This document shows, in pieces, positions 10,376-38,745 of a stretch of 64,000 nt of DNA. The stretch is from Stigmatella aurantiaca (lineage in GTDB: Bacteria > Myxococcota > Myxococcia > Myxococcales > Myxococcaceae). Under the pieces are notes generated by a model. The model was not told where the DNA came from and ran no database searches. It saw nothing but the letters and a program-made list of their open reading frames with translations. The translations under genes were made by a program, and so were the position numbers. The DNA lies in NCBI RefSeq assembly GCF_900109545.1, contig NZ_FOAP01000006.1:1-64000 (forward strand). Direction: 5' to 3'. Each line of letters begins with the position of its first letter. Within the stretch, counting starts at the first letter, position 1.

Positions 10376-10401
10376 CCCTTCCCCACAGGAGAAACACACT
10401 C

Positions 10402-11154
10402 ATGATCATCGATGCACATGCCCACCTGTCCCCCACCCCCTTCGGCTCCGCGGAGAACTACCTGGAGATGCTGAAGGAGAGCGGCATCCAGCAGGGCGTC
10501 GTCTGCCCCGGGGGGATGCTGGATGTCCGGAAGATGAACGACTTCGTCTCGGGCCAGAAGAAGCCCGACACGACGCCCAAGAACGACTACGTGAGCCAGT
10601 CCGTCCAGGCCCACCCGCAGCTGCACCCGGTGGCCTGTGTGGATCCATGTGATTCCCAGTCCGTCGCGAAGCTGGAGACGTACCTGGGCCAGGGGTTTCG
10701 CGGCCTGATGGTGTCTCCGCTCGTCCACAAGTTCTCGTTCTCGGACGGGACCATGGAGGAGTTGGCCGCCCTGTGCGGCGAGCACGGCGTCCCCATCATC
10801 TCGCACAACGGCTGGCGGCCGGGGGCCAATACCCAGGACTTCGTCCGGCTGGCCAAGGCATTCCCTCGCACGAACTTCATCCTGGAGCACATGGGGGCGC
10901 ACCCCGCGGACGCGGAAGCGACGGACGCCACGGCCTCCATGGACAACCTCTTCCTGGAGACGTCGCTCGGCGCCCACCTCCACATCGTGGAGACGGTGAA
11001 AAAGGCAGGACCCAACAAACTCATCTTCGGCTCCGAGTATCCCCTCTCCCATCCCGCCGTGGAGATGAAGAAAGTCTTCATGCTTCCCATCACGGATGGA
11101 GAGCGCGAGCGGATCCTCGGCGGGAACATCCGCGGACTGCTTCGCCTCGATTGA
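10402..11154 (+). CDS. Amidohydrolase-2 family protein, candidate benzoxazole cyclase
   Basis: A 250-residue TIM-barrel protein of the amidohydrolase superfamily (amidohydrolase_2 type). The metal-binding H-x-H is present at the start (IDAHAHL). There is a His in ISHNGWRPG and another in LEHMGAHPAD. The usual Asp of the last strand (F-G-T/S-D-Y-P) is replaced by Glu in FGSEYPLS. In nataxazole- and A33853-type pathways an amidohydrolase (NatAM, BomN) converts the ester or amide made by the ligase into the benzoxazole ring. The gene lies between two ligase genes, 26 nt after the first and 24 nt before the second, so the same role is proposed here. This is inferred from context. A plain hydrolase or decarboxylase of the ACMSD type is the alternative. 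Confidence 0.8.
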   Translation: MIIDAHAHLSPTPFGSAENYLEMLKESGIQQGVVCPGGMLDVRKMNDFVSGQKKPDTTPKNDYVSQSVQAHPQLHPVACVDPCDSQSVAKLETYLGQGFRGLMVSPLVHKFSFSDGTMEELAALCGEHGVPIISHNGWRPGANTQDFVRLAKAFPRTNFILEHMGAHPADAEATDATASMDNLFLETSLGAHLHIVETVKKAGPNKLIFGSEYPLSHPAVEMKKVFMLPITDGERERILGGNIRGLLRLD

Positions 11155-11178
11155 TCAGCACCCAGGGGGGATCAAACC

Positions 11179-12417: not shown

Positions 12418-12522
12418 CCGGACGGCGGAACTCACTCCAACCTCTGTCCGCGGCATTTCTTCCTGGCCCCTCTCACGCCGCGGGCGGCCCACATCATTGG
12501 ATTGCCAGGGGAGAAAACACAC

Positions 12523-22886: not shown

Positions 22887-24443
22887 TCAGAGGTTGATGC
22901 GCAGTCCCCCACCGAGCTGGAACGTCGGGGCAGGCACCAGGGGCCTTCCGTCGATGACAAAGGGCCCGGAGTCCAGGGCGAAGCGGAACTCGCCCCCCTT
23001 GCGCCCGTAGCTGACCGCAGCGTAGCCCTCCACGCTCAGGTACGACAGGGCGCGGTACCCCAGGTCCAGGCGCGAGGTGAAGGAGCGGTCCGACAGGTTG
23101 CCGAGGTTGGACAGAACGAAGGACGTCTTGTCCCAGGAGCCGGGCCCGATGAGCGTGGCGTAGAGGGCCGCGTAGTGCTGGCCCAGGTAGAAGGGCTGAT
23201 ACACGCCCCGGGCAATGAGGTACGGGTAGAGCGTCGAGGCGTCATACCCCGGAGCGTTGTAGAAGTACTCCACGCCCACGGTGGCCGTGTCGCTCTCGCT
23301 GTAGGCGAAGGTGTAGTTGGCGCCTCCAGAGACCTGGGGGGTGAAGTGCCCCGGAGACTCGCTGGGCACGGGCAGCTTCGCGATGTCCTCCAGGCCGTCA
23401 AGCTCCAGGCCCCCACCGCCCGCGAGGATGTCCTCCCAGGACAAGCCATCTGGCACCAGGAACCGGGGCGTCTCGAAGCCCTTGACGAGGGCCAGCTCGC
23501 CGTAGACGTCGAAGGGCCCCGCGGCGGAGGAGACGTCGAGCCCCATGCGGGGCTTGCGGCCACGCTGGAGCACGGCGCTGGCCCCGAACTCCGCGGTCCC
23601 CAGCACCACCTCGGCCCGGGCCGCCCCACCAATGCGGCCGAGCGTGGAGGCCGGCCCCGCGTTGTCCAGCAGCGCGATGCCATAGAAGTTCCACCCCTTG
23701 GCCTCCCAGGGGACGTGGAGCTTGACCATGGAGGCGCCCGTGCGGGCATCGAAGACGGCGAGCGGATCCCTGCGCTGGGGCGAGAGGAAGTCCGTAGGGT
23801 TCCAGAAGCGCGAGGTGCCCCACTTCACGTGCTGCTTGCCCACGGTGAAGAACACCGTGTGCGCGATGTCGAAGCGCAGCCACGCCTGGTCCAAGAGGAC
23901 GCGCGGGTTGGCGAACGTAGTGCCGGGGATGGCCGGGGTTCCATCACTGGGGTTGGTGCCCAGGAAGCCCGTGCTCTGGCCCGCCCGGGACGGATCGAAG
24001 CTCAACCGGCCCACCACCATGCCGCGCAGCCGGTCCGTGGGCCGGGCATCGAAGTAGCCATCCACCAGCGTGGGCGCGGAGAAGGCCGTGTCCCCGAAGG
24101 AGACCCCCTCGCTGCCCTGGGTGAAGGCGCGCAGGTAGAATTGGCCGCCAATCTTCAGCGGATCCTCGGTGTGCCCCTCGGTGCCGAAGGCCTCCTGCAC
24201 GGGAGCGCCGGTGAAGGCCTGCTCGTCGCGGGACTGCTCCGGGCCGGGCGCCTGTCCGCGGGAAGGCTCCAGGGGGGAGCCCTCGGCGGGGGGCGGTGGC
24301 TCCTGTGCCGAGGCGGCGGGCGTCTCCGGCTGTTCATCGCCCCCGAAGAGGGCTTCCTCGTCCGGCCGGGACTGGGCCGCCGCGGGAAGGCCCGTGAGCG
24401 CCGTGGCCAGCACCGCCGCCGAGAGCAACGCGCGGGCACTCAT
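22887..24443 (-). CDS. Outer-membrane beta-barrel protein, last gene of the ABC/LolA-like operon
   Basis: A 518-residue exported protein. A signal peptide ends at LPAAAQ. A Pro/Glu/Ala-rich low-complexity stretch follows (about residues 24-85). The rest shows alternating beta-strand patterns (for example YFDARPTDRLRGMVVGRLSF) and ends in FQLGGGLRINL, a hydrophobic-ending C-terminus typical of outer-membrane barrels. It resembles DUF1302/alginate-export-type barrels in layout, though this is not certain. The start overlaps the stop of the LolA-like gene (ATGA). It is proposed to be the outer-membrane element of the envelope system encoded by the operon. Confidence 0.75.
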   Translation of the reverse strand: MSARALLSAAVLATALTGLPAAAQSRPDEEALFGGDEQPETPAASAQEPPPPAEGSPLEPSRGQAPGPEQSRDEQAFTGAPVQEAFGTEGHTEDPLKIGGQFYLRAFTQGSEGVSFGDTAFSAPTLVDGYFDARPTDRLRGMVVGRLSFDPSRAGQSTGFLGTNPSDGTPAIPGTTFANPRVLLDQAWLRFDIAHTVFFTVGKQHVKWGTSRFWNPTDFLSPQRRDPLAVFDARTGASMVKLHVPWEAKGWNFYGIALLDNAGPASTLGRIGGAARAEVVLGTAEFGASAVLQRGRKPRMGLDVSSAAGPFDVYGELALVKGFETPRFLVPDGLSWEDILAGGGGLELDGLEDIAKLPVPSESPGHFTPQVSGGANYTFAYSESDTATVGVEYFYNAPGYDASTLYPYLIARGVYQPFYLGQHYAALYATLIGPGSWDKTSFVLSNLGNLSDRSFTSRLDLGYRALSYLSVEGYAAVSYGRKGGEFRFALDSGPFVIDGRPLVPAPTFQLGGGLRINL

Positions 24444-25228
24444 CGGCTTTTGCTCTCAAGCCAGGCCTTGGTGAAGATGTTGGCCTCGAGCGGCCGCAGG
24501 TCCACGCTCTTGATGAGGATGACGGTGGAGTTGGCCTTCTCCACCTCGTCATAGATGCGGATCTCCTGGGGGTACCAGACCTCGGCGCCCTTGGACTCGC
24601 TGAAGAGCTTCTGCCACTTCGGGTAGTAGAGCGTGCGCATCAGGCGGCCGGACAGGGCGAACTCCTGGCGCTTGAGGACGTTGCTCGTGGCGGTGTCCAC
24701 CCACAGCTTGATGACGGGATAGGCCACGTCGATGCCGGGCTTGGCCTGGAGCGACAGCTTGTGCACCTTGAACTTCCCCAGCGCCTCTTCTCCCTCGTAG
24801 GAGGGCGTGTACTCCTCGGCCAGGCGCGACTCGTCGAAGTCGGCGCGGCGGCTGTCCGTCCCGGCGATGCGCTCGCGCTCCGTGCGCCGCTCCCACTTGC
24901 CCACGTTGGGGTCATACCCCCACAGGTTCTTGTCCAACCGCAGGTAGCCCTTGCCCGCCTCGCCCTTGGGCTTGGTGAAGAGGAGCATCAGCTTGTCGTC
25001 CGCGTCGCGCCGGTAGACGAGCGCCTCGCGCACGGTGTCCGCCTTGTCCTTCTCCTTCTGCTCCAGGTAGGCCAGGGACTTGTAATCGCCGCCATTGCGC
25101 TGCCGGTCGTCAATGACTTCCAGCAGCTTCTTCATCCCTTCGGCATCCAGGGCCAGGGCGGTGGGGGCGGCCAGGAACACCACGGCCAGCGCGGCGGACA
25201 GCAGGGGCTGAAAATTCATGGTCATCAT
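24440..25228 (-). CDS. LolA-like outer-membrane lipoprotein-sorting protein
   Basis: A 262-residue periplasmic protein of the COG2834 (outer-membrane lipoprotein-sorting, LolA/LppX fold) family. It has a signal peptide (LLSAALAVVFLAAPTALA) and a beta-rich body with the family landmarks LRLDKNLWGYDPNVGKWER and KLWVDTATSNVLKRQEF. It is longer than LolA (about 180 residues in the mature form), as usual for the group paired with ABC or RND exporters. The start ATG at 25228 overlaps the permease stop, and the stop overlaps the barrel gene start. It probably shuttles a lipid or lipoprotein between inner and outer membrane. Confidence 0.85.
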   Translation of the reverse strand: MMTMNFQPLLSAALAVVFLAAPTALALDAEGMKKLLEVIDDRQRNGGDYKSLAYLEQKEKDKADTVREALVYRRDADDKLMLLFTKPKGEAGKGYLRLDKNLWGYDPNVGKWERRTERERIAGTDSRRADFDESRLAEEYTPSYEGEEALGKFKVHKLSLQAKPGIDVAYPVIKLWVDTATSNVLKRQEFALSGRLMRTLYYPKWQKLFSESKGAEVWYPQEIRIYDEVEKANSTVILIKSVDLRPLEANIFTKAWLESKSR

Positions 25229-26535
25229 CCAATGTGGTGCATGGCCGTCACGGGCTTCATCCGCGCGGCGAGGAACGAGGGAATGAGGCTCACCGCCATG
25301 GCGCACACGGTGATGAGCGTCACGGCGAAGGCCACGGAGCTGGGCTCGATTTTCAGGAACCAGGTCTCCGTCAGCAACATCACCTGAACCACTTCGGGGG
25401 CGCGCACGTGCTGGGAGTTGACGCCCAGGCAGAAGACCGTGGCGAGCGCCGCGCCGGTCAGCGTCGCCGAGAGGCTCAGCATCAACGCCTCGGTCAGGAA
25501 CATCACCAGCACCCGGCGCCGCTGCATGCCGATGGCGCGCAGCGTGCCCACCTCCCGGGTGCGCTCGCGGATGGCGATCCACAGCGTGTTCATGATGCCC
25601 ACGGCGATGATGACCAGCAGAACGAACGCCAGGAAGCCGGTGAGGAAGCTCAGCCCCTTCACCACCCACTGCACGAAGGAGATCTCGTCCTCCCAGTTGG
25701 TGATGTCCAGCTTCTGTCCCGTCCAGCCCTCCCGGTTGACGGAATCGAACTTCATCCAGAAGGCGCGGGGATCATTGTCCATGAGCGTGTAGTGGGCCGC
25801 GGAGAGCTTCTCGCGCAGGCGCTGCTGCACGGCGGGGATGGCCTGCATGTCCTTCAGGTACAGGAAGATGGCGCCCGTCGTGTCGGCCTTGAGCTGGTAG
25901 AGGTCCTGCAGGCTCTTGCTGGGCACGAAGGTGTTGAACGAGCTCATCATCCCCACGTTGGCGGCAATGGCCACCACGCGCACATCCAGGGTGTTGTTGG
26001 TGCCGCGCAGCGTGGGGGCCGACAGCGTCAGCGCGTCGCCCACGCGCACCTCCAGCTTCTTGGCCTGCTCCTCGAAGATGAGGATGGTGCCGGGCTCCCG
26101 CAGGTCATCCAGCTTGCCCTGCCGGATTTGAAGCACCTTGCGGAAGCCCTGCTCGTTCTCCACGTCGATTCCGCCCACGCCCACCTGCAGGGAGCCCGTG
26201 TCGGAGACGATTTTGGCCCACCCCCGCCCACGCTGGGACACGTAGTCCAGCTCGGGCACCTCCTGGCGGATGAGCGCCACGAGCTTCGGGTAGTTGACGA
26301 CGACCGCCGCGGACTGGCCGGACGTCACCTTGTAGAAGCCGCCCACGTTCACATGTCCGCTCATCAGCGTGGTGGCGGACTCGAGCATGGTGGCCCGCAT
26401 GCCGTTGGTCACCCCCATCAGGATGATGAGCAATGCGGTGACGCCCGCGATGGCGCCCCCCAGCAGCAGGGTTCGCCGGCGGTGGGCCAGCAGGTTGCGG
26501 AAGGCAATGAGGAGAATCTGGAGCATGGGGTTCAC
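25225..26535 (-). CDS. ABC transporter permease, FtsX/MacB type (second permease)
   Basis: A 436-residue membrane protein. TM1 lies at about residues 20-42 (AFRNLLAHRRR followed by the segment). A periplasmic MacB-PCD-like domain spans about 45-290. Three C-terminal helices follow, with an FtsX-type loop after TM2 (REVGTLRAIGMQRRRVL). The start is GTG, overlapping the TGA of the upstream permease (GTGA). An in-frame ATG three codons later is possible. With the other permease it should form the heterodimeric membrane part of a LolCE/MacB-like transporter powered by the ATPase at 28634-29380. Confidence 0.9.
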   Translation of the reverse strand: MNPMLQILLIAFRNLLAHRRRTLLLGGAIAGVTALLIILMGVTNGMRATMLESATTLMSGHVNVGGFYKVTSGQSAAVVVNYPKLVALIRQEVPELDYVSQRGRGWAKIVSDTGSLQVGVGGIDVENEQGFRKVLQIRQGKLDDLREPGTILIFEEQAKKLEVRVGDALTLSAPTLRGTNNTLDVRVVAIAANVGMMSSFNTFVPSKSLQDLYQLKADTTGAIFLYLKDMQAIPAVQQRLREKLSAAHYTLMDNDPRAFWMKFDSVNREGWTGQKLDITNWEDEISFVQWVVKGLSFLTGFLAFVLLVIIAVGIMNTLWIAIRERTREVGTLRAIGMQRRRVLVMFLTEALMLSLSATLTGAALATVFCLGVNSQHVRAPEVVQVMLLTETWFLKIEPSSVAFAVTLITVCAMAVSLIPSFLAARMKPVTAMHHIG

Positions 26536-28637
26536 TCGTCCGTCTGCATCGCCGTGACGGGCGACACGCGGGTGGCCAGGAACGCCGGGTAGAGGGTGGA
26601 AAACAGGGACACGCCCACCACCAGCAGGAAGGCCGTGATGAAGTTGCCGGGACTGAGGAAGGGCAGCAGCCGGGGCCCGCTGAAGAAGAAGTAGAGCTCC
26701 TCACTGACGGCCGGGATGCCCACCTGGCCCAGGTAGGAAATCAGCCCGCTGCCGAGCGCCGCCCCCGCGCCCCCGAACACCAGGCCCAGCACCACCGTCT
26801 CCAGGAGAATCATCGACAGGATGAAGGTGCGCTGGGCGCCAATGGCGCGCATGGTGCCCACCTCGCGCACGCGCTGGAGCGTGGCCATCATCACCGCGTT
26901 GTTGATGATGGCCAGCACCACCACGAAGAGGATGACGATGATGCCCCAGAGCACCATCTTCATCAGCAGCACGAACTGGCCAATGAGCCCCACCGCCTTC
27001 TGCCAGCTCACCACGCGCAGCTTCGCGTCCTTGAGCGCCTGGGACTGCTGGAGCTCCGCCAGGGTGCCGTCCAGCTTCGAGGGGTCCTTGAGGATGATGG
27101 CCGCGCTGAGCACCATCCCGTCCTCCACCTCCTTCTTGGAGTAGACGCGCTTGAGCAGGTCTTCCTTGCGCAAGGCGGCGCCGGTGGACTGGATCTGCTC
27201 GTTCTCGTTGATGAGGCCCGGGGTGGCCTCCGCCACCAGGGTGGAGGGGGCCGCCTCGCCGAAGAGGGCCTCCTCGGCCTCCTCCCGCTTCACCGCGGCC
27301 ACCCCGCTCTTCGCCTGGAGCTGGGCGATCTCCGCCCGCTTCTCCTCGGTGAGGTAGCCGTACAGCTCCCGGAAGGACACCAGGTCCATCAGGTTCACCG
27401 AGCCGGCCAGCGGGGACTTCTCCAGCCCGTTGAACTGGTACGTCCCGTAGATGGGGACGTTCACGTTCTGCACGTACCCCGTGCGGGTGAAGGCGGTAAT
27501 CGTCAGGGTGTCGCCCAACCGGATGCGGTACAGCTCCAGCAGGGGCACCAGTTGCGCGTAGAACTGCTCGTACCGCGCATCGAAGTTCCCGTCATTGACG
27601 TCCAGGAAGGTGCTCAGCAGCTTGGAGAGGTCCGTCTCCTGGCTGCCCAGCAGACGCTGGAGCCGCTCCGTGGCCTGCTGGGCCTTGATGGGATCCAGCT
27701 GGAAGAGCAGCTCGCGCATCTGCGTCCGGTTCTCGGAGACCCAGCGCTGCATCTGGGGATCCTCGGCAATCAGGCGCTGGCCCTCGCGGGCCTCCTTGAG
27801 GAGGTCCAACCGGCGCGCCGTCTTCAGCTTGAGGCTCTCCTCGTAGAAGAACTTGGACAGCAGCATGCCGCGCTTGCCGGGCGGCACCGCCTGGCCATCC
27901 ACGATCTGCATGCGGTCGAAGCTCTTCTGGAAGGACTCCAGGTCCGTGCCCACGTACCGGATGTAGAGCAGGTCGCCATCGGCGGCCTGGGGCGCGAGCC
28001 GGTTCTCCAGGAACTCGAGCGAGGCGAAGGGGTCCCGGTCGAAGTCCGCCCAGAAGGCATCCGTCTGGACACGCTCCAGCGCCTCCACCTCGGCGGGATC
28101 CCGGGCCTCCTCCCGGAGCAGCGCCTGGCTCTTCTGGATGTCCGCCTGGAGCAGCGTGCCCAGGCGGCGCACGTGCGCCTTGAGGCTGTCAATCCGGGCG
28201 CGCCGCTCCGGCGTCTCGCCCGCGTCCACGTTCTCCCGGTACAGGTCCCGGAGCCGGGCCAGCGTCAGGTCCACCGTGTTGCCGGAGCTGATGAGCGCCC
28301 CGTTGCTCCCCATGGGCACCACCGTCTGCACGTTGGGGTGCTTCTCCAGCGCCGCCTTGATGGGCGTGAAGCTGTCGAGCGCCGAGACGTCCGCCTCGCC
28401 GCCCATGCCGCCAAACAGCGCCAGCTCCTCCTTGGACTTGTCCGAGTAGACCTGGAGGTGCCCCGCGAGCGAGCCGATGATCGACCGGCTCATGGACGAG
28501 TCGATGCTGTCCAGCAGGGCGCCCCCCGTCACCACCAGGAAGGTGGCGAAGAAGATGATGCCTCCGATGATGAGGTTGACCCAGCTCTTGAACAGGTTGC
28601 GGAAGGCCACCTCCAGCAGCAACTTGAGCGTGGTCAT
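26532..28637 (-). CDS. ABC transporter permease, FtsX/MacB type, with large periplasmic domain
   Basis: A 701-residue permease. TM1 is near the N-terminus (IIGGIIFFATFLVVTGG, about residues 22-40). A periplasmic region of about 500 residues follows, much larger than in LolC/LolE (about 200). It is rich in charged helices and probably forms a long coiled or lobed extension. Three C-terminal helices have the REVGTMRAIGAQRTF loop. The start ATG overlaps the ATPase stop by 4 nt. The long frame continues upstream, but that region is the ATPase gene read out of frame. The oversized domain suggests a specialised substrate or direct contact with the LolA-like partner. Confidence 0.9.
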   Translation of the reverse strand: MTTLKLLLEVAFRNLFKSWVNLIIGGIIFFATFLVVTGGALLDSIDSSMSRSIIGSLAGHLQVYSDKSKEELALFGGMGGEADVSALDSFTPIKAALEKHPNVQTVVPMGSNGALISSGNTVDLTLARLRDLYRENVDAGETPERRARIDSLKAHVRRLGTLLQADIQKSQALLREEARDPAEVEALERVQTDAFWADFDRDPFASLEFLENRLAPQAADGDLLYIRYVGTDLESFQKSFDRMQIVDGQAVPPGKRGMLLSKFFYEESLKLKTARRLDLLKEAREGQRLIAEDPQMQRWVSENRTQMRELLFQLDPIKAQQATERLQRLLGSQETDLSKLLSTFLDVNDGNFDARYEQFYAQLVPLLELYRIRLGDTLTITAFTRTGYVQNVNVPIYGTYQFNGLEKSPLAGSVNLMDLVSFRELYGYLTEEKRAEIAQLQAKSGVAAVKREEAEEALFGEAAPSTLVAEATPGLINENEQIQSTGAALRKEDLLKRVYSKKEVEDGMVLSAAIILKDPSKLDGTLAELQQSQALKDAKLRVVSWQKAVGLIGQFVLLMKMVLWGIIVILFVVVLAIINNAVMMATLQRVREVGTMRAIGAQRTFILSMILLETVVLGLVFGGAGAALGSGLISYLGQVGIPAVSEELYFFFSGPRLLPFLSPGNFITAFLLVVGVSLFSTLYPAFLATRVSPVTAMQTDE

Positions 28638-29380
28638 CCGTGCGCCTCCGCCCCGGAGGCCATCGCCAGCCCCGCCTCGGCCGGGGTGACGCGGTCGAGC
28701 ACCTTGCCGTCCTTGAGCCGCACCACCGCGTTGGCGTGCGTCATCACCTTCGCGTCGTGGGTGGAGAAGATGAAAGTTGTCCCGCGCTCGGCGTTCATCG
28801 CCTTCATCAGGTCGATGATCTGCTGGCCCGTCACCGAGTCCAGGTTCGCGGTGGGCTCGTCGGCCAGGACAATCTGCGGCTGCGTCACCAGGGCGCGCGC
28901 CACGGCCACGCGCTGGCGCTGGCCACCGGACAGCTCGTTGGGCCGGTGCTTGGCGTGCTTGGCGAGCCCCACCTGCTCCAGCAGCGCCATCACGCGCTCC
29001 CGGCGCTGGGTGGCGTTCAGCTTCTTCTGGAGGAGCAGCGGAAACTCCACGTTCTGGAAGACGCTGAGCACCGAGACGAGGTTGAAGCTCTGGAAGATGA
29101 ACCCGATGGTGTGCAGCCGCAGGTCCGTGAGCTTGCGCTCGGAGAGTTGCTTCGTGTCCTGGCCCGCCACGCGCACGGTGCCCGAGGTGGCGGTGTCCAC
29201 GCACCCGATGAGGTTGAGCAGCGTGGTCTTCCCGCTGCCGGACGGGCCCGCGATGGAGATGAACTCCCCGGGGTGTACCTGGAGCGACACGCCGCGCAGC
29301 GCGGGAACCTCCACCTTGCCCAGGTGGTAGCTCTTGGTGACGTCCTGGATGGAGACGATGGGCTCTGGAGAGGAAGACAT
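28634..29380 (-). CDS. ABC transporter ATP-binding protein (LolD/MacB family)
   Basis: A 248-residue ATPase. Walker A is GPSGSGKTT, the Q-loop is FIFQSFN, the signature is LSGGQRQRV, Walker B is IVLADEPTANLDS and the H-loop is FSTHD. This is the canonical LolD/MacB subfamily that energises FtsX-type permeases. It is the first gene of the five-gene operon. The start ATG at 29380 gives the usual N-terminus. A TTG at 29410 is possible but lacks a ribosome binding site. Expression is probably under the divergent MarR-type regulator (29576). Confidence 0.95.
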   Translation of the reverse strand: MSSSPEPIVSIQDVTKSYHLGKVEVPALRGVSLQVHPGEFISIAGPSGSGKTTLLNLIGCVDTATSGTVRVAGQDTKQLSERKLTDLRLHTIGFIFQSFNLVSVLSVFQNVEFPLLLQKKLNATQRRERVMALLEQVGLAKHAKHRPNELSGGQRQRVAVARALVTQPQIVLADEPTANLDSVTGQQIIDLMKAMNAERGTTFIFSTHDAKVMTHANAVVRLKDGKVLDRVTPAEAGLAMASGAEAHG

Positions 29381-29529: not shown

Positions 29530-29550
29530 ATATCTTAGTTGCCAAGATAT
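29530..29550. promoter_or_regulatory. MarR-type palindromic operator in the divergent promoter
   Basis: ATATCTT (29530-29536), 7-nt spacer AGTTGCC, AAGATAT (29544-29550) is a perfect inverted repeat of the kind bound by MarR dimers. It lies 26 nt upstream of the MarR start and in the gap to the ABC operon. A second inverted repeat (CCCTGA 29509-29514, TCAGGG 29519-29524) lies just beside it. Auto-repression and control of the ABC operon are inferred. Confidence 0.6.
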
Positions 29551-29575: not shown

Positions 29576-30679
29576 ATGCCAAGCCAACTGAAGGAGCGCG
29601 AGGACCTGCTGGAAGCCTTGAGGCGGGGGATCGGCGACTTCAGTGACCAGGACGTCCTGTTCAGCCAGGCCAATGCCGACCAGATGGGCCTCAACCTGAC
29701 GGACCTGAAGTGCCTGAGCATCCTGGAGCGCTCCGGGGCCATGCCGGCCGGGCGGCTGGCGGAGATGACGGGGCTGACCTCGGGCGCCATCACCGGGCTC
29801 ATCGACCGGCTGGAGAAGGCGGGCTGGGCACGCCGGGTGAGGGACCCCAAGGACCGCCGGCACGTCATCATCGAGGTGGTGCCCGAGCGCATCCCCGGCA
29901 TCGACCAGTCGCGCAGCGAGCTGCGCAGCGTCCTGGCGGAGATGGTCGCGGACTACACGGACGAGCAGCTCCGGCTCATCCTGGACTTCCTCGGCCGCGG
30001 GGCGGCGATGTTCCGGGACGAGACGGTGAAGCTGCGCGCCGCCACCTCCACGAAGGGGGTGGCCTCGCCCGGGGACTTCTCGAGCCCGCTCGGTACCCTG
30101 ACGCACGCGCGCCTCAAGTTCGCCTCGGGCGCCTCGCAAGTCACCCTCCGGGCCCATCCGGGCATGCCGGAGCTCTACACGGCCCACTTCGAGGGCAGGG
30201 CGCCCACCGTGAAGGAGGAGGCAGGCAGCGTCTCCATCCAGTATCCCCGCTTCACGTTGCTCGACTGGCGCAAGCTCGCCGGGGACATCGTCCTCAACGG
30301 CTCGATTCCCTGGAAGCTGGAGCTGAAGGGCGGCGTCTCACGGATGAACGCGGACCTGAGCGAGCTGCGGCTCGAGTCCATCGAGCTGACCTCCGGCGCC
30401 AGCGACGTCACGGTGAAGCTGCCCAAACCCTCCGGGGTCGTCCCCATCCGCGTCTCGGGGGGGCTCAGCCATGTCACCTTCCTGCTGCCCGAAGGGGCCG
30501 CGGCCCGGCTCCAGGTGAAGGGGGGCGTGAGCGCGCTGGTGTTCCACGAGCAGTCCCTGGGCGCCGCCGGCGGGCAGGTCAACCTGGAGACCCCCGGCTA
30601 CAAGCAGGCCCTGGACCGGTACGACATCGATGTGACGGGAGGCGCCAGCGACCTGACCCTCGAGGGCGCGAGCCGCTGA
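29576..30679 (+). CDS. MarR-family regulator fused to a DUF4097-like beta-repeat domain
   Basis: A 367-residue two-part protein. Residues 1-150 form a MarR winged helix with LTDLKCLSILERSG, a recognition region AEMTGLTSGAITGLIDRLEKAGW and the wing RDPKDRRHV. Residues 175-367 are repeating short beta-strands (SGASQVTLRA, SGASDVTVKL, GGLSHVTFLL, GGVSALVF, GGASDLTLEG), which resemble the DUF4097 putative-adhesin right-handed repeat. The ATG at 29576 has GAGGG upstream. The open frame extends further 5' but is non-coding there. The fused domain may be a ligand-sensing or scaffold module. The regulator is divergent from the ABC/LolA-like operon and is its likely controller. Confidence 0.85.
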   Translation: MPSQLKEREDLLEALRRGIGDFSDQDVLFSQANADQMGLNLTDLKCLSILERSGAMPAGRLAEMTGLTSGAITGLIDRLEKAGWARRVRDPKDRRHVIIEVVPERIPGIDQSRSELRSVLAEMVADYTDEQLRLILDFLGRGAAMFRDETVKLRAATSTKGVASPGDFSSPLGTLTHARLKFASGASQVTLRAHPGMPELYTAHFEGRAPTVKEEAGSVSIQYPRFTLLDWRKLAGDIVLNGSIPWKLELKGGVSRMNADLSELRLESIELTSGASDVTVKLPKPSGVVPIRVSGGLSHVTFLLPEGAAARLQVKGGVSALVFHEQSLGAAGGQVNLETPGYKQALDRYDIDVTGGASDLTLEGASR

Positions 30680-30691
30680 GCGGCTCCTGCC

Positions 30692-32071
30692 CTACCGCAC
30701 CCAGTCGATGCGGTGCTTGCGCCCCTTGATGCGGCCCTCGCGCAGCCGCTGCAGCGCCATCCGGGCCAGGTCCTTGGCGACGGCGACATAGGCCAGCCGG
30801 TCCTGGATCTCGATCTTGCCCACGCCCGAGGCGCTCAGCCCTCCGGCCTCGCCCGTCAAGGCGCCCAGGATGTCTCCCGGCCGCATCTTGTCCTTGCGTC
30901 CCGCGGAGATGCAGAGCGTCTGCCAGGAGGACTCCAGCGAGGGCCCCTGCCCTTCGGGAGGCAGCGTCCCCACCCCTGGCCGTTCCTGCTTCACGCCCGT
31001 GGCCTTCTCGATGTCCTCGAGCTTCTGCGCGTCCCGCAGCGTGGCCAGGGAGATGGCCAGGCCCTGCCTCCCCGCGCGCCCGGTCCGTCCAATGCGGTGC
31101 ACGTACGCCTCGGGCTGTGAGGGCAAGTCGAAGTTGATGACGGCATCCAGCGCCTCCACGTCGATGCCGCGGCCGGCCACGTCCGTGGCGATGAGGACGC
31201 GGGTGCTGTGGTTGCGGAACTTCGCCATGACGCGATCCCGCTCGGCCTGCTCCAGGTCCCCCTGAAGCCCATCCACGCTCACCCCTGCCTCCGCCAGCTC
31301 CTGCGTCAGCTCGGCCACCGTCGCCTTGAGGTTGCAGAAGACGATGGCGGCGGCCGGCTGGTACTTCCGGAGGATGCGCAGCAGGAGCCGCGGCTTCTCG
31401 GGGGCGTCGCACGTGTAGCAGAGCTGTTGGATCTCGGGCGCCGCGCGGTCCTCCCCGGCCGTCACCCGCACGGGCGCTTTCTGAAACGCGCGGCTCATCG
31501 CCTCGATGGTGGAGGGGAACGTCGCCGAGAAGAGGACGGTCTGCCGCTGGGGGGGAACCGCGCCCAGGATGCGTTCCATGTCCTCGCGGAAGCCCATGTC
31601 GAGCATCCGGTCGGCCTCGTCGAGCACCACGGTGGCCAGGTGCCGTGTGTCGAGGGCCTCCCGCTGGAGCAGGTCCAGCACCCGGCCGGGCGTGCCGGTG
31701 GCGATGTGGACGCCCTTGTCGAGCGCGTCCAGCTGAGGCCGGATGGGCTGGCCCCCGGCGAGGACGAGCACCTGGAGTCCAGGCAGCCGCCGGCCCAGGC
31801 GGCGGATCTCCCCCGCCACCTGCGCGCAGAGCTCCCGCGTGGGGCACAGCACGAGCGCCTGGAGCTGCCGCCGGGGCAGCTCCACCTTCTGCAAGAGCGG
31901 GAGCGCGAACGCCGCGGTCTTCCCGCTCCCCGTCTGGGCCTGGCCGATGAGATCCTTCCCCTGCAGCAGCACCGGGATGCTCTGGGCCTGGATGGGCGTG
32001 GCGGACGTGAACCCCAGCTCCGCGAGGATCTGCAGCAGCGGTGGGGAGAGGGCGAGTCCAGCGAAGTCCAT
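30692..32071 (-). CDS. dbpA: ATP-dependent RNA helicase DbpA
   Basis: A 459-residue DEAD-box helicase. The Q motif, AQTGSGKT (motif I), PTREL, VLDEADRML (DEAD), SAT and HRIGRTGR (motif VI) are all present. The C-terminal about 75 residues form the DbpA RNA-binding domain (KMRPGDILGALTG ... KIEIQDRLAYVAV). This domain directs DbpA to hairpin 92 of 23S rRNA during large-subunit assembly. It is convergent with the MarR gene, with only 12 bp between stops, and divergent from the PKS gene across a 284-bp gap. Confidence 0.93.
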   Translation of the reverse strand: MDFAGLALSPPLLQILAELGFTSATPIQAQSIPVLLQGKDLIGQAQTGSGKTAAFALPLLQKVELPRRQLQALVLCPTRELCAQVAGEIRRLGRRLPGLQVLVLAGGQPIRPQLDALDKGVHIATGTPGRVLDLLQREALDTRHLATVVLDEADRMLDMGFREDMERILGAVPPQRQTVLFSATFPSTIEAMSRAFQKAPVRVTAGEDRAAPEIQQLCYTCDAPEKPRLLLRILRKYQPAAAIVFCNLKATVAELTQELAEAGVSVDGLQGDLEQAERDRVMAKFRNHSTRVLIATDVAGRGIDVEALDAVINFDLPSQPEAYVHRIGRTGRAGRQGLAISLATLRDAQKLEDIEKATGVKQERPGVGTLPPEGQGPSLESSWQTLCISAGRKDKMRPGDILGALTGEAGGLSASGVGKIEIQDRLAYVAVAKDLARMALQRLREGRIKGRKHRIDWVR

Positions 32072-32355
32072 CCGGCCCTTGTATCAGCAGTTCCCGTGAG
32101 TGCGCGAAAGCCGAAAGACAAGCCGTCCCAAGGGGCAAACCCACCGGCACTGTTCAGTTCGCGGAACAGGCTCACCTTGCGGGGTATTCACGGCTGAAGG
32201 GCTTGAAAGGCCCATGCTCGCATGGCTACTCATCCGCGCTCACCGCGCTCCTCCTTCCGCGACACATGTCAGTTTCTGCCCGGCCGTTCACGGCCGCGCG
32301 GGGACAGGAGCCGGGCAGGGACCACAGGTTCCGATGTTTGTACCGGGGGGATTCC

Positions 32356-35300
32356 ATGTCGTCTGGCACTGAGCACTCCGCAGTTCCCGCCACGTCCGTT
32401 TCTCAAGAGCCCTCCGCCGGAAGACGGCAAGAGCCCATCGCCGTGGTGGGTGCGTCCTGCCGGTTACCGGGGGGACTGGACTCGGCCCAGGCCCTGTGGC
32501 GCTGCCTGCTGGAGGGGCGGGACGTGGTGCAAGGGGGAGACCCGGGCACCCGGTGGGCCCCTCACCCGCCCCCGCTGCCCAGCGACACCGAGGACGCCCA
32601 GTTGATCCGCACCGGGGGCTACCTCCGGGACATCGCCGGTTTTGATCCGGCGTTCTTTGGCATCGCGCCCCGGGAAGCGGCCTCCATTGATCCCCAGCAC
32701 CGGCTGCTCCTGGAGGTGGCCTGGGAGGCGCTGGAGAACGCGGGCATTCCGCCCCGGCAACTCGAGGGCAGCCAGACGGGGGTCTTCACCGGCCTGTCGC
32801 AGACGAGCTACCGCGACCTGGTGGATCCCCAGGAGAACGAGGTCTACCACGCGACGGGCATGGTGCTCAGTGGCGCCTCGGGCCGCATCTCGTATGTGCT
32901 CGGGACCCACGGCCCCAGCGTGACGGTGGAGGCGGCGTGTGCCTCCTCGCTGGTCTCCATCCACCTGGCCTGCCAGAGCCTGCTGGCGGGCGAGTCGGTG
33001 CTGGCCCTGGCCGGTGGGGTCAACATCAACCTGGACTGGCGGACCACCATCGGCTTCACGCGCGCGCGGATGCTCTCGCCGCGCGGCCGGTGCCACGCCT
33101 TCGACAGCCGCGCCGATGGCTTCGTGCGCAGCGAGGGCGGCGGCATGGTGGTGCTCAAGCGGCTGTCCGATGCCGAGCGGGACGGGGACCGCATCCTCGC
33201 CTTGGTGCGCGGCAGCGCGGTGAACCATGTGGGCCACTCGCAGGGGCTGATGATGCCCTCGGCGAGCGCGCAGAAAGAGGTGCTGAGCGCGGCGCTGGCC
33301 CGGGCGGGGGTGGCCCCCGGACAGGTGGGGCTGGTGGAAGCCCATGGCACCGGCACGCCGGTGGGGGATCCGATCGAGTTCGAGGCCGTGGCCTCCGTCT
33401 ACGGCCAGGGGGCGGGCCGCTGCGCGCTCGGCGCGGTGAAGACCAACGTGGGCCACACCGAGAGCGCCGCGGGCGTCATCGGCTTCATCAAGGCGGTGAT
33501 GGCGCTCCAGGAAGGCGTCGTCCCGCCCAACCTGAACTTCGAGAGCTGGAACCCCCGGATCCCCGCGCAAGGCACCCGGCTGTTCGTCCCCACCCGGGTG
33601 GAGCCGTGGCCCGTCCGGGGGGAGCGCCGCTTCGCGTCGGTCTCCGCCTTCGGCGTCACCGGCAGCAATGCCCACCTGGTCCTGGAGCAGGCCCCCCGGA
33701 GGGCCCCTTCCGTCCCGGCTTTCGCCCCGCGGCGGCAGGAGCCGGAGCGGCTCTTCACGCTCTCCGCGGGCTCACCGGCGGCGCTGCGGGGGGCCGCGGA
33801 GCGGCTGGGCGCGTGGCTGCCGGGTGACGGCGGGGACGTCCCGCTGGAGGACATCGCCCATACCCTGGCCGTCCGCCGCTCCCATGCGCTGCACCGCGCG
33901 GTGGTGGTGGCCAGCTCCCGGGACGTGCTGGCCACCGGGCTGCACGCCCTGGCGCAGGGGGCCTCCAGCCGGAGTGTGCTCCTGGGCCGGGCCGAGGCGG
34001 CCTCCCGGCCGGTCTGGGTGTTCTCCGGCTACGGCTCGCAGTGGGAGGGCATGGGGCGCACGCTCCTGGATCAGGAGCCCGCCTTCACCCAGGTCATCGA
34101 CGCGCTGGAGCCCATCGCGGCCCGGGAAGCGGGAATCTCGTTGCGGCAGCTCATCACCTCGGCCCTGCCCCTGGAGCGCATGGACGTGGTGCAGCCGCTG
34201 CTCTACGCGCTCCAGGTGGGCCTGGCCGCCACCTGGCGCAGCCATGGGGTCCACCCGGCCGCGGTGGTGGGCCACTCCGTGGGCGAGGTCGCCGCGGCGG
34301 CCGCCGCGGGCATGCTCACCCTGGAGCAGGGAATGGGGGTCGCCTGCGCCCGCTCGCGCCTGCTCCAGCGGATGGCGGGGGGCAGCATGGCCGTGGTGGG
34401 CCTGTCCGAGGAGCAGGTCTCCGAGGAGCTGGCCCGCGAGGGCCATCCGGGCGTGAGCGTGGCCGTGGTGGCGTCGCCCACCTCCACGGTGATTTCGGGC
34501 AATGCCTCCAGCGTGCAGGCGCTGATGGAGCGCTGGTCCGCCCGGGGGCTCTTCGTGAGCGCCGTGGCCGTCCAGGTGGCCGCGCACTCGCCCCAGGTGG
34601 AGCCCGTGCTGGGAGAGCTGGCGCTGGCGCTGGCGGGGATCCGTCCCGCCCCGCCGCAGGTGCCCTTCTACAGCACCGTCCTGGACACGCCCCGGGCGAA
34701 AGCCGTCTGCGATGCGGCCTACTGGGTGGCCAACCTGCGCCGTCCCGTGCGCTTCGCGCCCGCCATCGAGGCGCTGCTCACCGACGGGCATGATCTCTTC
34801 GTGGAGATCTCCCCCCATGCCCTGTTGACCGCGTCGATCGAAGAGACGGCGACGGCCATGGGCCGGGGGGCGCACGTGCTCCCCACGCTGCTCCGGGAAC
34901 GGCCCGAGCACACCACCTTCCTCACCCACCTGGCGGCGCTGCACTGCTCGGGCGGCCGGGTGGACTGGGCCTCGGTGTATCCCGAGGGCAAGCGGGCCGA
35001 CCTTCCCACCACCGTCTGGGAGCGCCAGGCGTACTGGCCAGCCAAGCCCGCCACCTCGCCCCTGCCCCATCCCTCCGCGCACCCGCTGCTAGGCATCCGC
35101 GCCCAGGTCCCGGATGCAGACACGGACGACGGCGTCCGTTACGTCTGGAATGGCGATGTGGGCACCGCGGTGCACCCCTGGCTCGGCGACCACCGGGTGC
35201 GGGAGCTGCCCGTGCTCCCTGGCGCGGCGTATGTCGAGATGGCCCTCGCCGCCGCGTGTGAGGTGTTCCAGGGCACGCCGGACCGGATGCGGGTGACGAA

Positions 35301-38300
35301 CGTCGAGTTCCAGCAACTGCTGCTCCTGACGGAGCACGTCGAGGTCTGCTCGGTGGCGACGCTCCACCGGGGGAAGATGCGCTTCGAGGTGATGACCCGC
35401 GGAACGGCGGGGGCCTGGGTGTGCCATGCCCGCGCCGAGCTGGCGCAAGATGCCCCCATCCTCCTCCCGGTGGCCGAGGCGCTGGCGGAGGGGCGGGACG
35501 CCAACGGGCACGATGCGGGGGGGCTGTACCGCAGGCTGCGCAAGCTCGGCCTCCACTACGGGCCCGCCTTCAGCGGCCTCGTCCGCTTCTTCGCCGGGGG
35601 AGCGCCCTCCCTGGGCCGGTTGGGCGAGGTGTCCCTGCCCGAGGCGGCCCGGCTCCGGCAGGGCCGGTTCTGGCTGCATCCGGCCTTGCTGGATGCCTGC
35701 CTGCAGGCGCTGGCCACGTCCGTGCTGGAAGAGGCCGGTGGCACGGCGGAGGAGAACACCCCGTGGCTGCCCACCTCCGTGGCGCGGATCCAGCTCGCGG
35801 GGGACCTCTCGGGAATCCGCTGGTGCCGGGCCTGGGTGGACACCGCCCCGGAGGGCGGCCTGACCGGGCGGATTCATCTGCTCGGCCAGACGGGCACCCT
35901 GCTGGGCGTGCTGGAGGGAATCCAGCTCATCCGCATGAAGCCCCCGCAGGCCATCGAGACGCTGCGGGAGCGTCTGTTCCAGACCGCCTGGGAGGAGGTT
36001 CCCCTGACGCGGCCCGAACTCCTCTCGCTGCCGGGCCGCTGGCTCCTGCTCGCCGAGGACGGGGCACGCCCCTTCGCCCAGGGACTGCTCGACGCGCTGG
36101 AGGGCCAGGGCGCGCGAGGAGACCTCCTGGTGGGAACCGGCCCCGGGCTGGCCCAGCGCGCCGCCCAGCACCTCTCCGCAGTGGGCGCTTCCTACCAGGG
36201 CCTCGCCTTCTGCACCGCCCCTGCGGACACCGAGCCCTCGCCCCAGCCCGGCACCCCGGAGGCCCGGGAGCGGCTCTGCCAGGTGGTGGAGCTGGTGCGT
36301 GCACACGCCGAGGGGACGCCCCTGCCCCGCCTGTGGCTCGTCACCCAGGGCGCACGGCCTGTCCTCCCGGAGGATCCCGTGCGGCCGGATCACGCCGCCC
36401 TCCAGGGGCTGGCCCGGATCCTGAACTACGAGCACCCCGAGCTGGGCACCACGCTGGTGGATGCCGATCCCAGCGCCCCGCCTTCACAGCTCGCCGGGGA
36501 ACTGCTGGCGGGCCGCGGCGAGGACGAGGTGGCGTGGCGCGGCGGGGTGCGCCGCGTGGCGCGGCTGGTGAGCAGCCCACTGCGGCCCGAGGAACGCCTG
36601 AAGCCCCGGCCCGTGATGGCGCGCTACGGCCGCGACGGCTTCTTCCTGCACGCCGACGGCTCGGGCACGTTCGAGGGGCTGGGCTTCGTGGCCCGGGAGC
36701 GGCGTGCGCCCAAGCGGGACGAAATCGAGGTGCAGGTCCGGGTAGCGTCGCTGAACTTCCGGGACGTCATGATCGCGCTGGGCATGTTGCCCTCCGATGA
36801 TGGCCTGGACCTGAACCTGGGGGCGGACTGCGCGGGGATAGTCACCGCGGTGGGCAGCGGCGTGCGGCACCTGCGCCCTGGCGACCGGGTGATGGCCATG
36901 GCGGGCGGAACGCAGGGCACCTTCTCCTCGTTCTACCTCGTGCCCGCCCACTGCGCGGTCCGGCTTCCCGACGAGCTGACGCTGGAGGACGCGGCCACGC
37001 TTCCGGCCACCTATGCGACCGCCTGGTACGGCCTGCGCCGGCTCGCCCGGCTGGCGCCCGGCGAGAGCGTGCTGATCCACTCCGCGGCCGGCGGGGTGGG
37101 GCTCGCGGCGCTCGCCATCGCCCGGGCCCGAGGAGCGCACATTTTCGCGACCGCAGGGGACGAGACCAAGCGCGCCTACCTGCGGGAGCTGGGAATCCCT
37201 CACGTGATGGACTCCCGGAGCCTGGACTTCGCCGCGCAGGTGCGCGAGCTCACGGACGGCCGGGGCGTGGACGTCGTCCTCAACTCACTCGCGGGTGATG
37301 CCCTGCGGGCGAGCCTCGAGACACTCGCCCCCAACGGGCGCTTCATCGAGATTGGCAGGAGGGACCTCTACGGCAACAGCAGGATCGGGCTGCGCGTCCT
37401 GCGGCACGGCATCACCTTCAGCAGCGTCGACATGAAGCACCTGGAGCCGGAGGCCATGCGGGAGGTCCTCACGGACGTGCTGGACGAGGTCTCCTCGGGC
37501 CGGCTCCCGCCCCTGCCCTACCGGCTGTTTCCCTTCGCCCAGGCCGCGGAAGCCTTCCGGCTCATGGCGGGCGGCAAGCACATCGGCCGGCTGATGCTCA
37601 CCCTGCCCGCGAGTGGGGAGCAGCCCGTGCAGCCGGCTCCCGGCACCTCCCAGGCGGTCCGGCCCGGGGATGCGTACGTGATTACGGGAGGGCTGCGAGG
37701 CCTGGGCCTGGAAACGGCCCGGTGGCTCGCCTCGCACGGGGCGGGGCGCGTGGTGCTCAACGGCCGGTCGGCGCCGTCCGAGGACGCGCTCGCCGTCATC
37801 GCGCAGCTGCGCGCCACGGGCACGGAGGTCGACGTGGTGCGGGGAGACATCGCCCTGCCCAGCACCGCCCACCAGCTCGTGGCCGCGGCCACCGCCGGCG
37901 GCAAGGCCCTGCGGGGGGTGATTCACGCGGCCGTCGTCCTGGATGACGCGCCCGTGGCCCACCTCACGCCGGAGCGGATCGGCCGGGTCTGGCAGCCCAA
38001 GGCCGCCGGCGCCTGGAACCTGCATCAGGCCACGCTCGGCCATGACCTGGACTGGTGGGTGGCCTTCTCCTCCCAGACGTCGCTGGTGGGCAACGCCGGG
38101 CAGGCCAACTACGCGGCCGCCAACGCCTGGCTGGATGCGTTCGCCACCTGGCGCCGCCGGCAGGGGCTCCCGGCCTTGGCCATCAACTGGGGCGCCTGGG
38201 GAGAAGCCGGGCGCGCCCAGGACTTCAAGGCCCGCGGCTTCACCACGATTGGCACCCGGGAAGGCATGGCCGCCCTGGAGGCCCTGCTGCTGCACGGCCG

Positions 38301-38745
38301 GACCTCCACGGGCATGTTCGCCTTCGAGCCCCACCTGTGGTTCCGGACCTTCCCGCAGGCGGCCTCCTCCTCCTTCTTCGCCCGGATTCTCGACCAGGCG
38401 CAGCAGGGCTCCCCCGCGGCGCAGGCATCCGAGACGGCCCCCCTGGAGACCATCCGGGCCACGCCCCCCGGCATGCGGCGCCAGAACCTCCTCCAGGCCC
38501 ACCTGGTGACCCAGCTGGGCGTCGTCACGGGCCTGCAAGCCGCGGCGATTTCTCCCGATACGGCCTTCACCCATCAGGGCCTGGATTCGCTCATGGCCGT
38601 GCAGCTGCGCAACCTCGTCCGCGCATCGCTGGGCGTGGAGCTGCCCGTCAACGCCGTCTGGACCTACCCGACGCCGGCGAAGCTCGCCTCGTACCTCGAC
38701 GGGGTGCTCGGCAAGGACACCTCGAAGGCGGGAGGCCGCTCATGA
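32356..38745 (+). CDS. Type I polyketide synthase, single fully reducing module (KS-AT-DH-ER-KR-ACP)
   Basis: A 2,129-residue PKS. KS (about 26-450) has the active-site Cys195 in VEAACASSL (not the usual DTACSSSL), His330 in HGTGT and His367 in NVGHTE. AT (about 552-860) has Ser641 in GHSVGE; the substrate motif reads VAAHS, close to the YASH/VASH class (methylmalonyl-like) but ambiguous. DH (about 910-1190) has His946 in HRVRELPVLP, where the usual Gly is Glu, and Asp1113 in DACLQ. ER (about 1430-1750) has HSAAGGVG at 1575. KR (about 1772-1960) has TGGLRGLG, Tyr1919 and an LDD motif (B-type). ACP has Ser2078 in GLDSL. There is no integrated TE; a type II thioesterase is coupled downstream. 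With one module it probably acts iteratively or elongates a supplied starter. The product is unknown. Confidence 0.93.
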   Translation: MSSGTEHSAVPATSVSQEPSAGRRQEPIAVVGASCRLPGGLDSAQALWRCLLEGRDVVQGGDPGTRWAPHPPPLPSDTEDAQLIRTGGYLRDIAGFDPAFFGIAPREAASIDPQHRLLLEVAWEALENAGIPPRQLEGSQTGVFTGLSQTSYRDLVDPQENEVYHATGMVLSGASGRISYVLGTHGPSVTVEAACASSLVSIHLACQSLLAGESVLALAGGVNINLDWRTTIGFTRARMLSPRGRCHAFDSRADGFVRSEGGGMVVLKRLSDAERDGDRILALVRGSAVNHVGHSQGLMMPSASAQKEVLSAALARAGVAPGQVGLVEAHGTGTPVGDPIEFEAVASVYGQGAGRCALGAVKTNVGHTESAAGVIGFIKAVMALQEGVVPPNLNFESWNPRIPAQGTRLFVPTRVEPWPVRGERRFASVSAFGVTGSNAHLVLEQAPRRAPSVPAFAPRRQEPERLFTLSAGSPAALRGAAERLGAWLPGDGGDVPLEDIAHTLAVRRSHALHRAVVVASSRDVLATGLHALAQGASSRSVLLGRAEAASRPVWVFSGYGSQWEGMGRTLLDQEPAFTQVIDALEPIAAREAGISLRQLITSALPLERMDVVQPLLYALQVGLAATWRSHGVHPAAVVGHSVGEVAAAAAAGMLTLEQGMGVACARSRLLQRMAGGSMAVVGLSEEQVSEELAREGHPGVSVAVVASPTSTVISGNASSVQALMERWSARGLFVSAVAVQVAAHSPQVEPVLGELALALAGIRPAPPQVPFYSTVLDTPRAKAVCDAAYWVANLRRPVRFAPAIEALLTDGHDLFVEISPHALLTASIEETATAMGRGAHVLPTLLRERPEHTTFLTHLAALHCSGGRVDWASVYPEGKRADLPTTVWERQAYWPAKPATSPLPHPSAHPLLGIRAQVPDADTDDGVRYVWNGDVGTAVHPWLGDHRVRELPVLPGAAYVEMALAAACEVFQGTPDRMRVTNVEFQQLLLLTEHVEVCSVATLHRGKMRFEVMTRGTAGAWVCHARAELAQDAPILLPVAEALAEGRDANGHDAGGLYRRLRKLGLHYGPAFSGLVRFFAGGAPSLGRLGEVSLPEAARLRQGRFWLHPALLDACLQALATSVLEEAGGTAEENTPWLPTSVARIQLAGDLSGIRWCRAWVDTAPEGGLTGRIHLLGQTGTLLGVLEGIQLIRMKPPQAIETLRERLFQTAWEEVPLTRPELLSLPGRWLLLAEDGARPFAQGLLDALEGQGARGDLLVGTGPGLAQRAAQHLSAVGASYQGLAFCTAPADTEPSPQPGTPEARERLCQVVELVRAHAEGTPLPRLWLVTQGARPVLPEDPVRPDHAALQGLARILNYEHPELGTTLVDADPSAPPSQLAGELLAGRGEDEVAWRGGVRRVARLVSSPLRPEERLKPRPVMARYGRDGFFLHADGSGTFEGLGFVARERRAPKRDEIEVQVRVASLNFRDVMIALGMLPSDDGLDLNLGADCAGIVTAVGSGVRHLRPGDRVMAMAGGTQGTFSSFYLVPAHCAVRLPDELTLEDAATLPATYATAWYGLRRLARLAPGESVLIHSAAGGVGLAALAIARARGAHIFATAGDETKRAYLRELGIPHVMDSRSLDFAAQVRELTDGRGVDVVLNSLAGDALRASLETLAPNGRFIEIGRRDLYGNSRIGLRVLRHGITFSSVDMKHLEPEAMREVLTDVLDEVSSGRLPPLPYRLFPFAQAAEAFRLMAGGKHIGRLMLTLPASGEQPVQPAPGTSQAVRPGDAYVITGGLRGLGLETARWLASHGAGRVVLNGRSAPSEDALAVIAQLRATGTEVDVVRGDIALPSTAHQLVAAATAGGKALRGVIHAAVVLDDAPVAHLTPERIGRVWQPKAAGAWNLHQATLGHDLDWWVAFSSQTSLVGNAGQANYAAANAWLDAFATWRRRQGLPALAINWGAWGEAGRAQDFKARGFTTIGTREGMAALEALLLHGRTSTGMFAFEPHLWFRTFPQAASSSFFARILDQAQQGSPAAQASETAPLETIRATPPGMRRQNLLQAHLVTQLGVVTGLQAAAISPDTAFTHQGLDSLMAVQLRNLVRASLGVELPVNAVWTYPTPAKLASYLDGVLGKDTSKAGGRS

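Follow-up and report, generated by a model that had tools for sequence, protein, structure and literature searches.

What does a compact five-gene operon of a myxobacterium carry across the cell envelope, and by which route? The question is raised by positions 22887-29380 of a 64,000-nucleotide stretch of Stigmatella aurantiaca DNA (contig NZ_FOAP01000006.1), referred to here as the window. The window belongs to a 9.37-Mb assembly that its matches place in the Myxococcota. The operon is proposed to be an inducible exporter driven by an ATP-binding cassette (ABC) ATPase, whose small cargo molecule, apolar or amphipathic, would be carried to a channel in the outer membrane; this reading has about an even chance of being right. 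The initial annotation had listed an ATPase, two FtsX permeases, a LolA-like carrier and a barrel, and the list stands: four of the genes are named by Pfam and the barrel is given by a structural model.

28634..29380, minus strand: ABC ATPase of the LolD/MacB type, 248 residues (ABC_tran, 8.1e-34; TIGR02211 LolD, 237.5 bits, cut-off 307.75)
26532..28637, minus strand: FtsX1, 701-residue permease with a periplasmic region of about 500 residues and a LolC/LolE core (FtsX domain, hydropathy, model)
25225..26535, minus strand: FtsX2, 436-residue permease with a GTG start (FtsX, 8.7e-18)
24440..25228, minus strand: LolA_like periplasmic carrier, 262 residues (PF17131, 1.6e-37; PDB 3buu, 4.8e-11)
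22887..24443, minus strand: modelled outer-membrane beta-barrel, 518 residues, 18 long strands, relative of DUF1302-like barrels (model and profiles)

Operon parts and their conservation

The genes overlap by exactly 4 nt at each of the four junctions (ATGA three times, GTGA once), where overlaps of about this length had been noted. Such overlap at all four junctions is rare in the family, being possible in 1 of 60 complete related loci by a permissive count over possible starts that left out the window's own locus. Hydrophobic segments of FtsX1 were located by hydropathy at residues 15-46, 548-590, 599-634 (three merging windows) and 656-689. The stretch between the first two of these is about 500 residues long, against about 240 in FtsX2, and the large periplasmic domain remarked on earlier for one permease is that of FtsX1. 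Both permeases contain the FtsX C-terminal domain PF02687 (4.5e-15 and 8.7e-18), and the ATPase, whose best-scoring curated models are LolD and DevA, is a separate chain. ATPase and permeases are those of the FtsX, or type VII, ABC exporters.

The FtsX1 model (mean pLDDT 82, pTM 0.74) placed LolE and LolC chains of LolCDE on top in Foldseek (best 2.5e-11), with HrtB, MacB and others lower. The same chains lead in VIA at Z of about 25, with 369-390 residues aligned at a root-mean-square deviation of 3.8-6.0. Three helical stretches, about 280 residues together, appear in the model as additions to this core, with boundaries read by the authors from the modelled secondary structure:

27999..28277, minus strand: FtsX1 helical addition 1, residues 121-213
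27540..27854, minus strand: FtsX1 helical addition 2, residues 262-366
27123..27383, minus strand: FtsX1 helical addition 3, residues 419-505 (460-486 under pLDDT 50)

No fold was established for the additions, and their VIA rows, at Z 7.5-8.3, may be due to chance.

The fifth protein had no match in the Pfam scan and is predicted from its AlphaFold2 model (pLDDT 83, pTM 0.78, first ~90 residues of low confidence) to be an outer-membrane beta-barrel, with 18 long strands by the authors' count. Trimeric porins and AlgE fill the first Foldseek rows, and VIA gives Occ/OprD porins at Z of about 21-24 and AlgE at Z of about 20-22. The rows listed by Foldseek and VIA name porins, Occ and AlgE, and a fold outside those rows, such as Omp85, is still conceivable for a protein that Pfam does not name. 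One segment is strongly conserved:

23760..23840, minus strand: barrel segment GKQHVKWGTSRFWNPTDFLSPQRRDPL, residues 202-228, mostly the third long loop of the model

If the chain starts in the periplasm, this segment (WG..NPTDFL) would form the third outer loop. The third outer loop narrows many porins.

Permease and barrel are inherited together. Among 193 Myxococcota genomes, strong relatives of FtsX1 (E < 1e-100) were found in 113 and of the barrel (E < 1e-34) in 116, any barrel match being present in 127. Both are present in 111 genomes, neither in 74, the permease only in 2 and the barrel only in 2, with 4 intermediate genomes set aside; since the genomes are related to each other, the Fisher value of this count is not a probability. 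A barrel and LolA-like gene that did not follow the transporter had been named as the observation that would speak against a joint system, and both are conserved with it. The set can also be missing. Strong FtsX1 relatives occur in three of the 16 genomes of genus group g4 (G091, G093, G147); when nine of the 13 others were searched for PF17131, eight were without any match. With FtsX1 and PF17131 both missing, the whole set can be absent, and we infer that it can be lost.

The order ABC-FtsX1-FtsX2-LolA-barrel was found in 16 of 20 fetched loci, the other four (L061, L062, L066, L076) being paralogous clusters picked on purpose, where the full order is absent. A scan of genome contigs with the window-type carrier gave 226 stretches and 182 relatives, and the best 80 of the 182 were kept; both of its peptide patterns derive from that carrier, so that it covers relatives of this type and is not an all-phyla survey. 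The full order is present in 60 of the 80; of the remaining 20, contig ends truncate 15, and five are incomplete without that explanation. The kept loci are labelled Myxococcota or named myxobacteria, Deltaproteobacteria, or only 'proteobacterium' or 'bacterium', with five odd labels: Coatesbacteria (L139), Oligoflexia (L153), Silvanigrellales (L166) and Klebsiella (L128, L147), the last two taken as misnamed records. Conserved gene order across phyla had been suggested as a check in the initial annotation. On the records covered, such conservation is not supported, the order being kept under the labels just given; Vibrio and Plesiomonas plasmids have a related four-gene form.

Only the five operon genes recur in all of 17 compared loci, and the neighbours are not conserved. 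No frame group outside the operon occurs in more than 3 of the 17 neighbourhoods (single linkage, 1e-12, a grouping in which some frames upstream in L070-L072 were joined to the permeases). In five loci (L064, L065, L068, L118, L158) a window-type operon lies beside genes resembling a type III secretion set; some of these include what is, judged by a motif, presumably an SctJ-like lipoprotein.

The carrier-barrel pair and its engines

In the Pfam scan the carrier matched PF17131 plus one chance-level model, and PF03548, the LolA family, was not matched. The system had been described as distinct from the housekeeping Lol system, and this view is upheld. The ATPase scores below the LolD equivalog cut-off, and the permeases, at 49.8 and 78.8 bits, below the LolC/E cut-off of 362.45. 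The single PF03548 LolA of the genome lies at C1:406760, and a LolC/E-like gene lies at C34:58568-59863 (88 + 218 bits in two pieces). As this gene is also below 362.45 bits, the LolC/E cut-off is strict here.

Two further PF17131 carriers are present in the genome. The one at C27 (L082) has an MMPL pump on one side and a barrel on the other; this barrel matches DUF1302 (6.6e-8), and the carrier itself also matches DUF1329 (1.1e-6). The one at C36 (L083) has two FtsX permeases of ordinary size, a barrel and an ATPase for neighbours. The window-type barrel profile matched the FtsX-linked C36 barrel at 97.8% (E 6.9e-13) and the MMPL-linked C27 barrel at 94.4% (E 8.5e-8), and reversed copies and 15 shuffles of each genome barrel reached at most 1.2%. 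Over a 1.10-Mb control (the window and the 80 loci), the profile gave 69 matches, all of them operon barrels, one cut by a contig end.

Sixty-two PF17131 loci of the phylum were classed by their engine: an MMPL neighbour in 22 (barrel in 21), FtsX permeases in 21 (barrel in 17) and no engine found in 19 (barrel in 11). They come from 64 loci, 60 fetched and 4 earlier, after L219 and L220 were dropped because no carrier was called; the 60 were hand-picked, mostly high-scoring, among the matches listed, and none is of the window type. The MMPL call of L204 is weak, and L082 and L083 also supplied seeds. Judging from gene neighbourhoods and profiles, the carrier-barrel pair is common to two unrelated engines, ABC/FtsX and MMPL. 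On a carrier tree from a quick search, the ABC or MMPL partner is explained by one change, compared with an average of 23.7 for shuffled ABC-group labels; the branch parting the ABC-linked carriers has a support of 78, and the MMPL group alone requires 4 changes. Carriers thus appear to keep to one type of engine, which is indirect evidence, at most, for docking between the two.

Other arrangements were also observed. L066 and L076 show a third type, in which a large FtsX1, an FtsX2 and a LolA_like gene occur and no ATPase or barrel was found nearby; on the tree its carrier falls with those of the window type. Four LolA-barrel pairs (L201, L210, L226, L221) had no engine found; a protein of ~590-600 residues starting TLRT..GDEHLDL lies just upstream of the pair in L201, L210 and L221, and L226 has a similar one on the other strand. 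The FtsX-FtsX-LolA-barrel-ABC set of L083 (G000:C36:18000-34000) lies, by reading, amid two ketosynthases, a UbiA-like enzyme, a Rieske oxygenase and an acyl-CoA ligase, and a TetR-like gene precedes it. In L061 (G000:C33:71000-88000), paralogues of FtsX1 and FtsX2 (49% and 56% identity) stand at 7464-13265 beside nonribosomal peptide synthetase-like genes. This pair is split by a CmlA-like diiron/metallo-lactamase protein and a short-chain dehydrogenase-like frame, and the stretch gave no ATPase, carrier or barrel match.

Regulation and cargo

Upstream of the operon lie two features that may serve in its control:

29576..30679, plus strand: divergent MarR-family regulator, 367 residues, with a long C-terminal extension (PF01047, 1.6e-15)
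29530..29550, no strand: 21-bp palindrome ATATCTT-N7-AAGATAT, candidate MarR operator between the MarR gene and the operon

The family search of the regulator used an upstream start at 29537. Pfam matched its helix-turn-helix part alone; the extension, about 200 residues, is DUF4097-like by eye. The palindrome was found through the locus of G084; its arms, at 7 nt, had kept it from showing up when the intergenic stretch of the window was scanned for inverted repeats. At up to one mismatch the palindrome is a single site in the whole 9.4-Mb genome, and it was found in 0 of 100 window shuffles with up to two mismatches allowed. G080 and G084 each carry a single exact copy, which precedes the ATPase by about 150 bases, and G146, a genome without a strong FtsX1 relative, has none. 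Among 58 immediate upstream neighbours, derived from the authors' own gene caller, MarR_2 is the commonest family (21), and no other exceeds 3, other helix-turn-helix models apart. The MarR protein presumably binds the palindrome. A TetR regulator had also been considered for the window-type operon; it was rejected because what L070 and L071 encode at the upstream position are CPXCG proteins.

In the proposed mechanism, the ATPase and an FtsX1-FtsX2 heterodimer would pull a small molecule, apolar or amphipathic, out of the inner membrane in the way LolCDE extracts lipoproteins. The LolC/E-like periplasmic part would hand it to the soluble LolA-like carrier, which would diffuse and deliver it into the 18-strand porin-like barrel, where it would exit. 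A divergent MarR repressor on the single palindrome would switch the set on when the ligand or a similar molecule is present. Complex formation, direction of transport and cargo are all conjectural. MarR regulators usually sense small lipophilic ligands, and this is one reason why a small apolar or amphipathic cargo is favoured. A second is that the set can be missing. A third is found in relatives of the carrier-barrel pair. In Castellaniella defragrans, deletion of ameABCD, encoding a resistance-nodulation-division (RND) pump of the HAE3 type with a DUF1329 LolA-superfamily protein and a DUF1302 protein, lowers monoterpene tolerance, and action on monoterpenes is indicated by this phenotype and by Nile red (PMC6394551). 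On C28 alkane, levels rise for a protein that combines MMPL and LolA-like domains and for the predicted porin next to it (PMC6304351). The initial annotation had proposed a complete lipid or lipoprotein route from inner to outer membrane. Of this, the co-inherited unit with parts that should span the envelope is retained; the lipid or lipoprotein cargo is unsupported, and the MarR gene with its palindrome and the use of the pair by MMPL pumps point to small apolar molecules.

Several observations weigh against such an exporter. Two of the incomplete loci (L118, L158) keep ATPase, carrier and barrel and lack the permeases; L151 has no barrel within 8 kb, and L101 and L133 have none in their remaining 1.1-1.4 kb. 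Among the 62 classed PF17131 loci, the barrel was not found in 13 and the engine in 19. The exact palindrome occurs in 2 of 5 other tested carriers of the system in the same genus (not in G090, G152 or G185), three genomes of the family (G142, G145, G154) lack it, and the G166 copy lies on another contig than the system. No MarR_2 match was obtained for 37 of the 58 upstream neighbours. The nearest solved relatives of the permeases, judged by structure titles, transport lipoproteins, haem or macrolides, and a structural likeness of modelled permeases is no proof of function. The match between the window barrel and a Vibrio plasmid barrel is weak (27.7%, E 6.4e-4; controls at most 0.5%).

A constitutive route for the cell's own structural envelope lipid, or for a surface hydrocarbon, survives best among the alternatives, unlikely as it is; an own envelope lipid is a possible cargo. 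The system occurs across genome sizes of 4-5 Mb up to 13 Mb and across many Myxococcota families, a spread that could mean a core envelope role and thus also counts against the exporter. The genome's two other PF17131 systems lie amid genes that read as biosynthetic, their names being mostly by reading. Such a route fits poorly with neighbours that are not conserved, the five genes alone recurring in 17 of 17 loci, with the 13 of 16 g4 genomes whose lack of a strong FtsX1 relative suggests a losable set, and with a regulator gene beside many copies.

A second lipoprotein route, in which certain lipoproteins would pass from the transporter to the carrier, to be positioned or displayed at the cell surface by the barrel, is slightly less probable still. 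Lipoprotein sorting is possible but less likely as a role: the FtsX1 core resembles LolC/LolE best and the name of the carrier family refers to lipoprotein sorting, yet the genome has a separate PF03548 LolA and LolC/E-like gene (no search was made for LolB), the scores stay under the LolD and LolC/E cut-offs and PF03548 is not matched. The barrel is porin/Occ/AlgE-like in its model, the pair also stands beside MMPL pumps, and one would not usually expect lipoprotein sorting to come with a MarR gene and a palindrome found at one site.

Export of, or self-protection against, a polyketide is improbable. A large polyketide synthase frame was read at window positions 32041-38745, beyond the MarR gene and a helicase-like gene. 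It begins 1.4 kb beyond the MarR gene, and elsewhere in the genome the paralogous FtsX pair stands beside nonribosomal peptide synthetase-like and CmlA-like genes; however, the helicase-like gene intervenes and a synthase gene never occurs in at least 3 of the 17 compared loci. As neighbours do not recur, the synthase beside the window copy is probably incidental. Uptake of a hydrophobic molecule, to which Occ porins, known as uptake channels, lend something as the top VIA rows of the barrel, is more improbable again, because ABC transporters with the LolCDE/MacB/HrtBA permease fold are known as exporters or extractors.

A wider scheme may tentatively be drawn, which is somewhat doubtful as a whole. 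Shuttle exporters would be a third trans-envelope efflux layout, where a soluble LolA-like carrier, and not an adaptor tunnel, crosses the periplasm; the carrier-barrel half would be common to ABC and RND engines after one ancient exchange, and the Myxococcota ABC version would have gained the ~280-residue helical addition on one permease for hand-over. To our knowledge, tunnel-free crossing of the periplasm by very hydrophobic molecules is poorly known. Being small, kept in many of the phylum's families, missing from part of one genus and apparently under one-site control, the unit lends itself to direct tests of cargo and mechanism. The occurrence of the pair beside LolCDE-like and MMPL engines also helps to annotate genes called outer membrane lipoprotein-sorting protein or DUF1302.

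Comparison with known systems

Searches of an open-access library did not turn up the exact five-gene form, in which two LolC/E-like permeases, presumably a heterodimer and one of them enlarged by helices, are joined by a porin/Occ/AlgE-like barrel related to DUF1302. LolABCDE has the ATPase, two FtsX-type permeases and a LolA-fold carrier in common with the window, and the FtsX1 core has the LolC/LolE fold. The window system differs by its scores below the cut-offs, its PF17131 carrier, the barrel in the operon and the three helical additions. It differs from MacAB-TolC in that the ATPase is separate from the permease, no adaptor or outer-membrane efflux family occurs in the five proteins, and the modelled barrel is porin/Occ/AlgE-like.

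Among plasmids, the window carrier matched one record and the window barrel gave no match. Four-gene cassettes from plasmids of Vibrio sp. HDW18 and Plesiomonas shigelloides (L081, L085) have ABC-FtsX-LolA_like-barrel in the same order. The Vibrio barrel has the segment GKxxxxWG...PxDxxxPxRRxPL in common with the window barrel and is 49% identical to that of P. shigelloides. Their differences lie in a single ordinary-sized permease and in the genes for a histidine kinase and a LytTR regulator that come after the cassette.

The closest printed ABC version found is the Borrelia BBJ23-29 cluster, itself a prediction, which combines an ABC ATPase, an FtsX/MacB-type permease, a LolA-like protein and a barrel in one cluster (PMC13078400). 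Its own features there are a homodimeric permease, an Omp85 barrel and two tetratricopeptide repeat (TPR) proteins (PMC13078400), whereas the window has two unlike permeases, a porin/Occ/AlgE-like modelled barrel and an operon without a TPR gene. AmeABCD has an RND engine and the extra periplasmic AmeC (PMC6394551), where the window engine is ABC/FtsX; the window barrel and carrier have no Pfam DUF1302 or DUF1329 match and are linked to it by profile comparison alone. The likeness is a LolA-superfamily periplasmic protein and an outer-membrane protein of the DUF1302 kind, or in the window probably related to it, joined to a dedicated inner-membrane engine in one cassette, which in AmeABCD acts on apolar compounds (PMC6394551).

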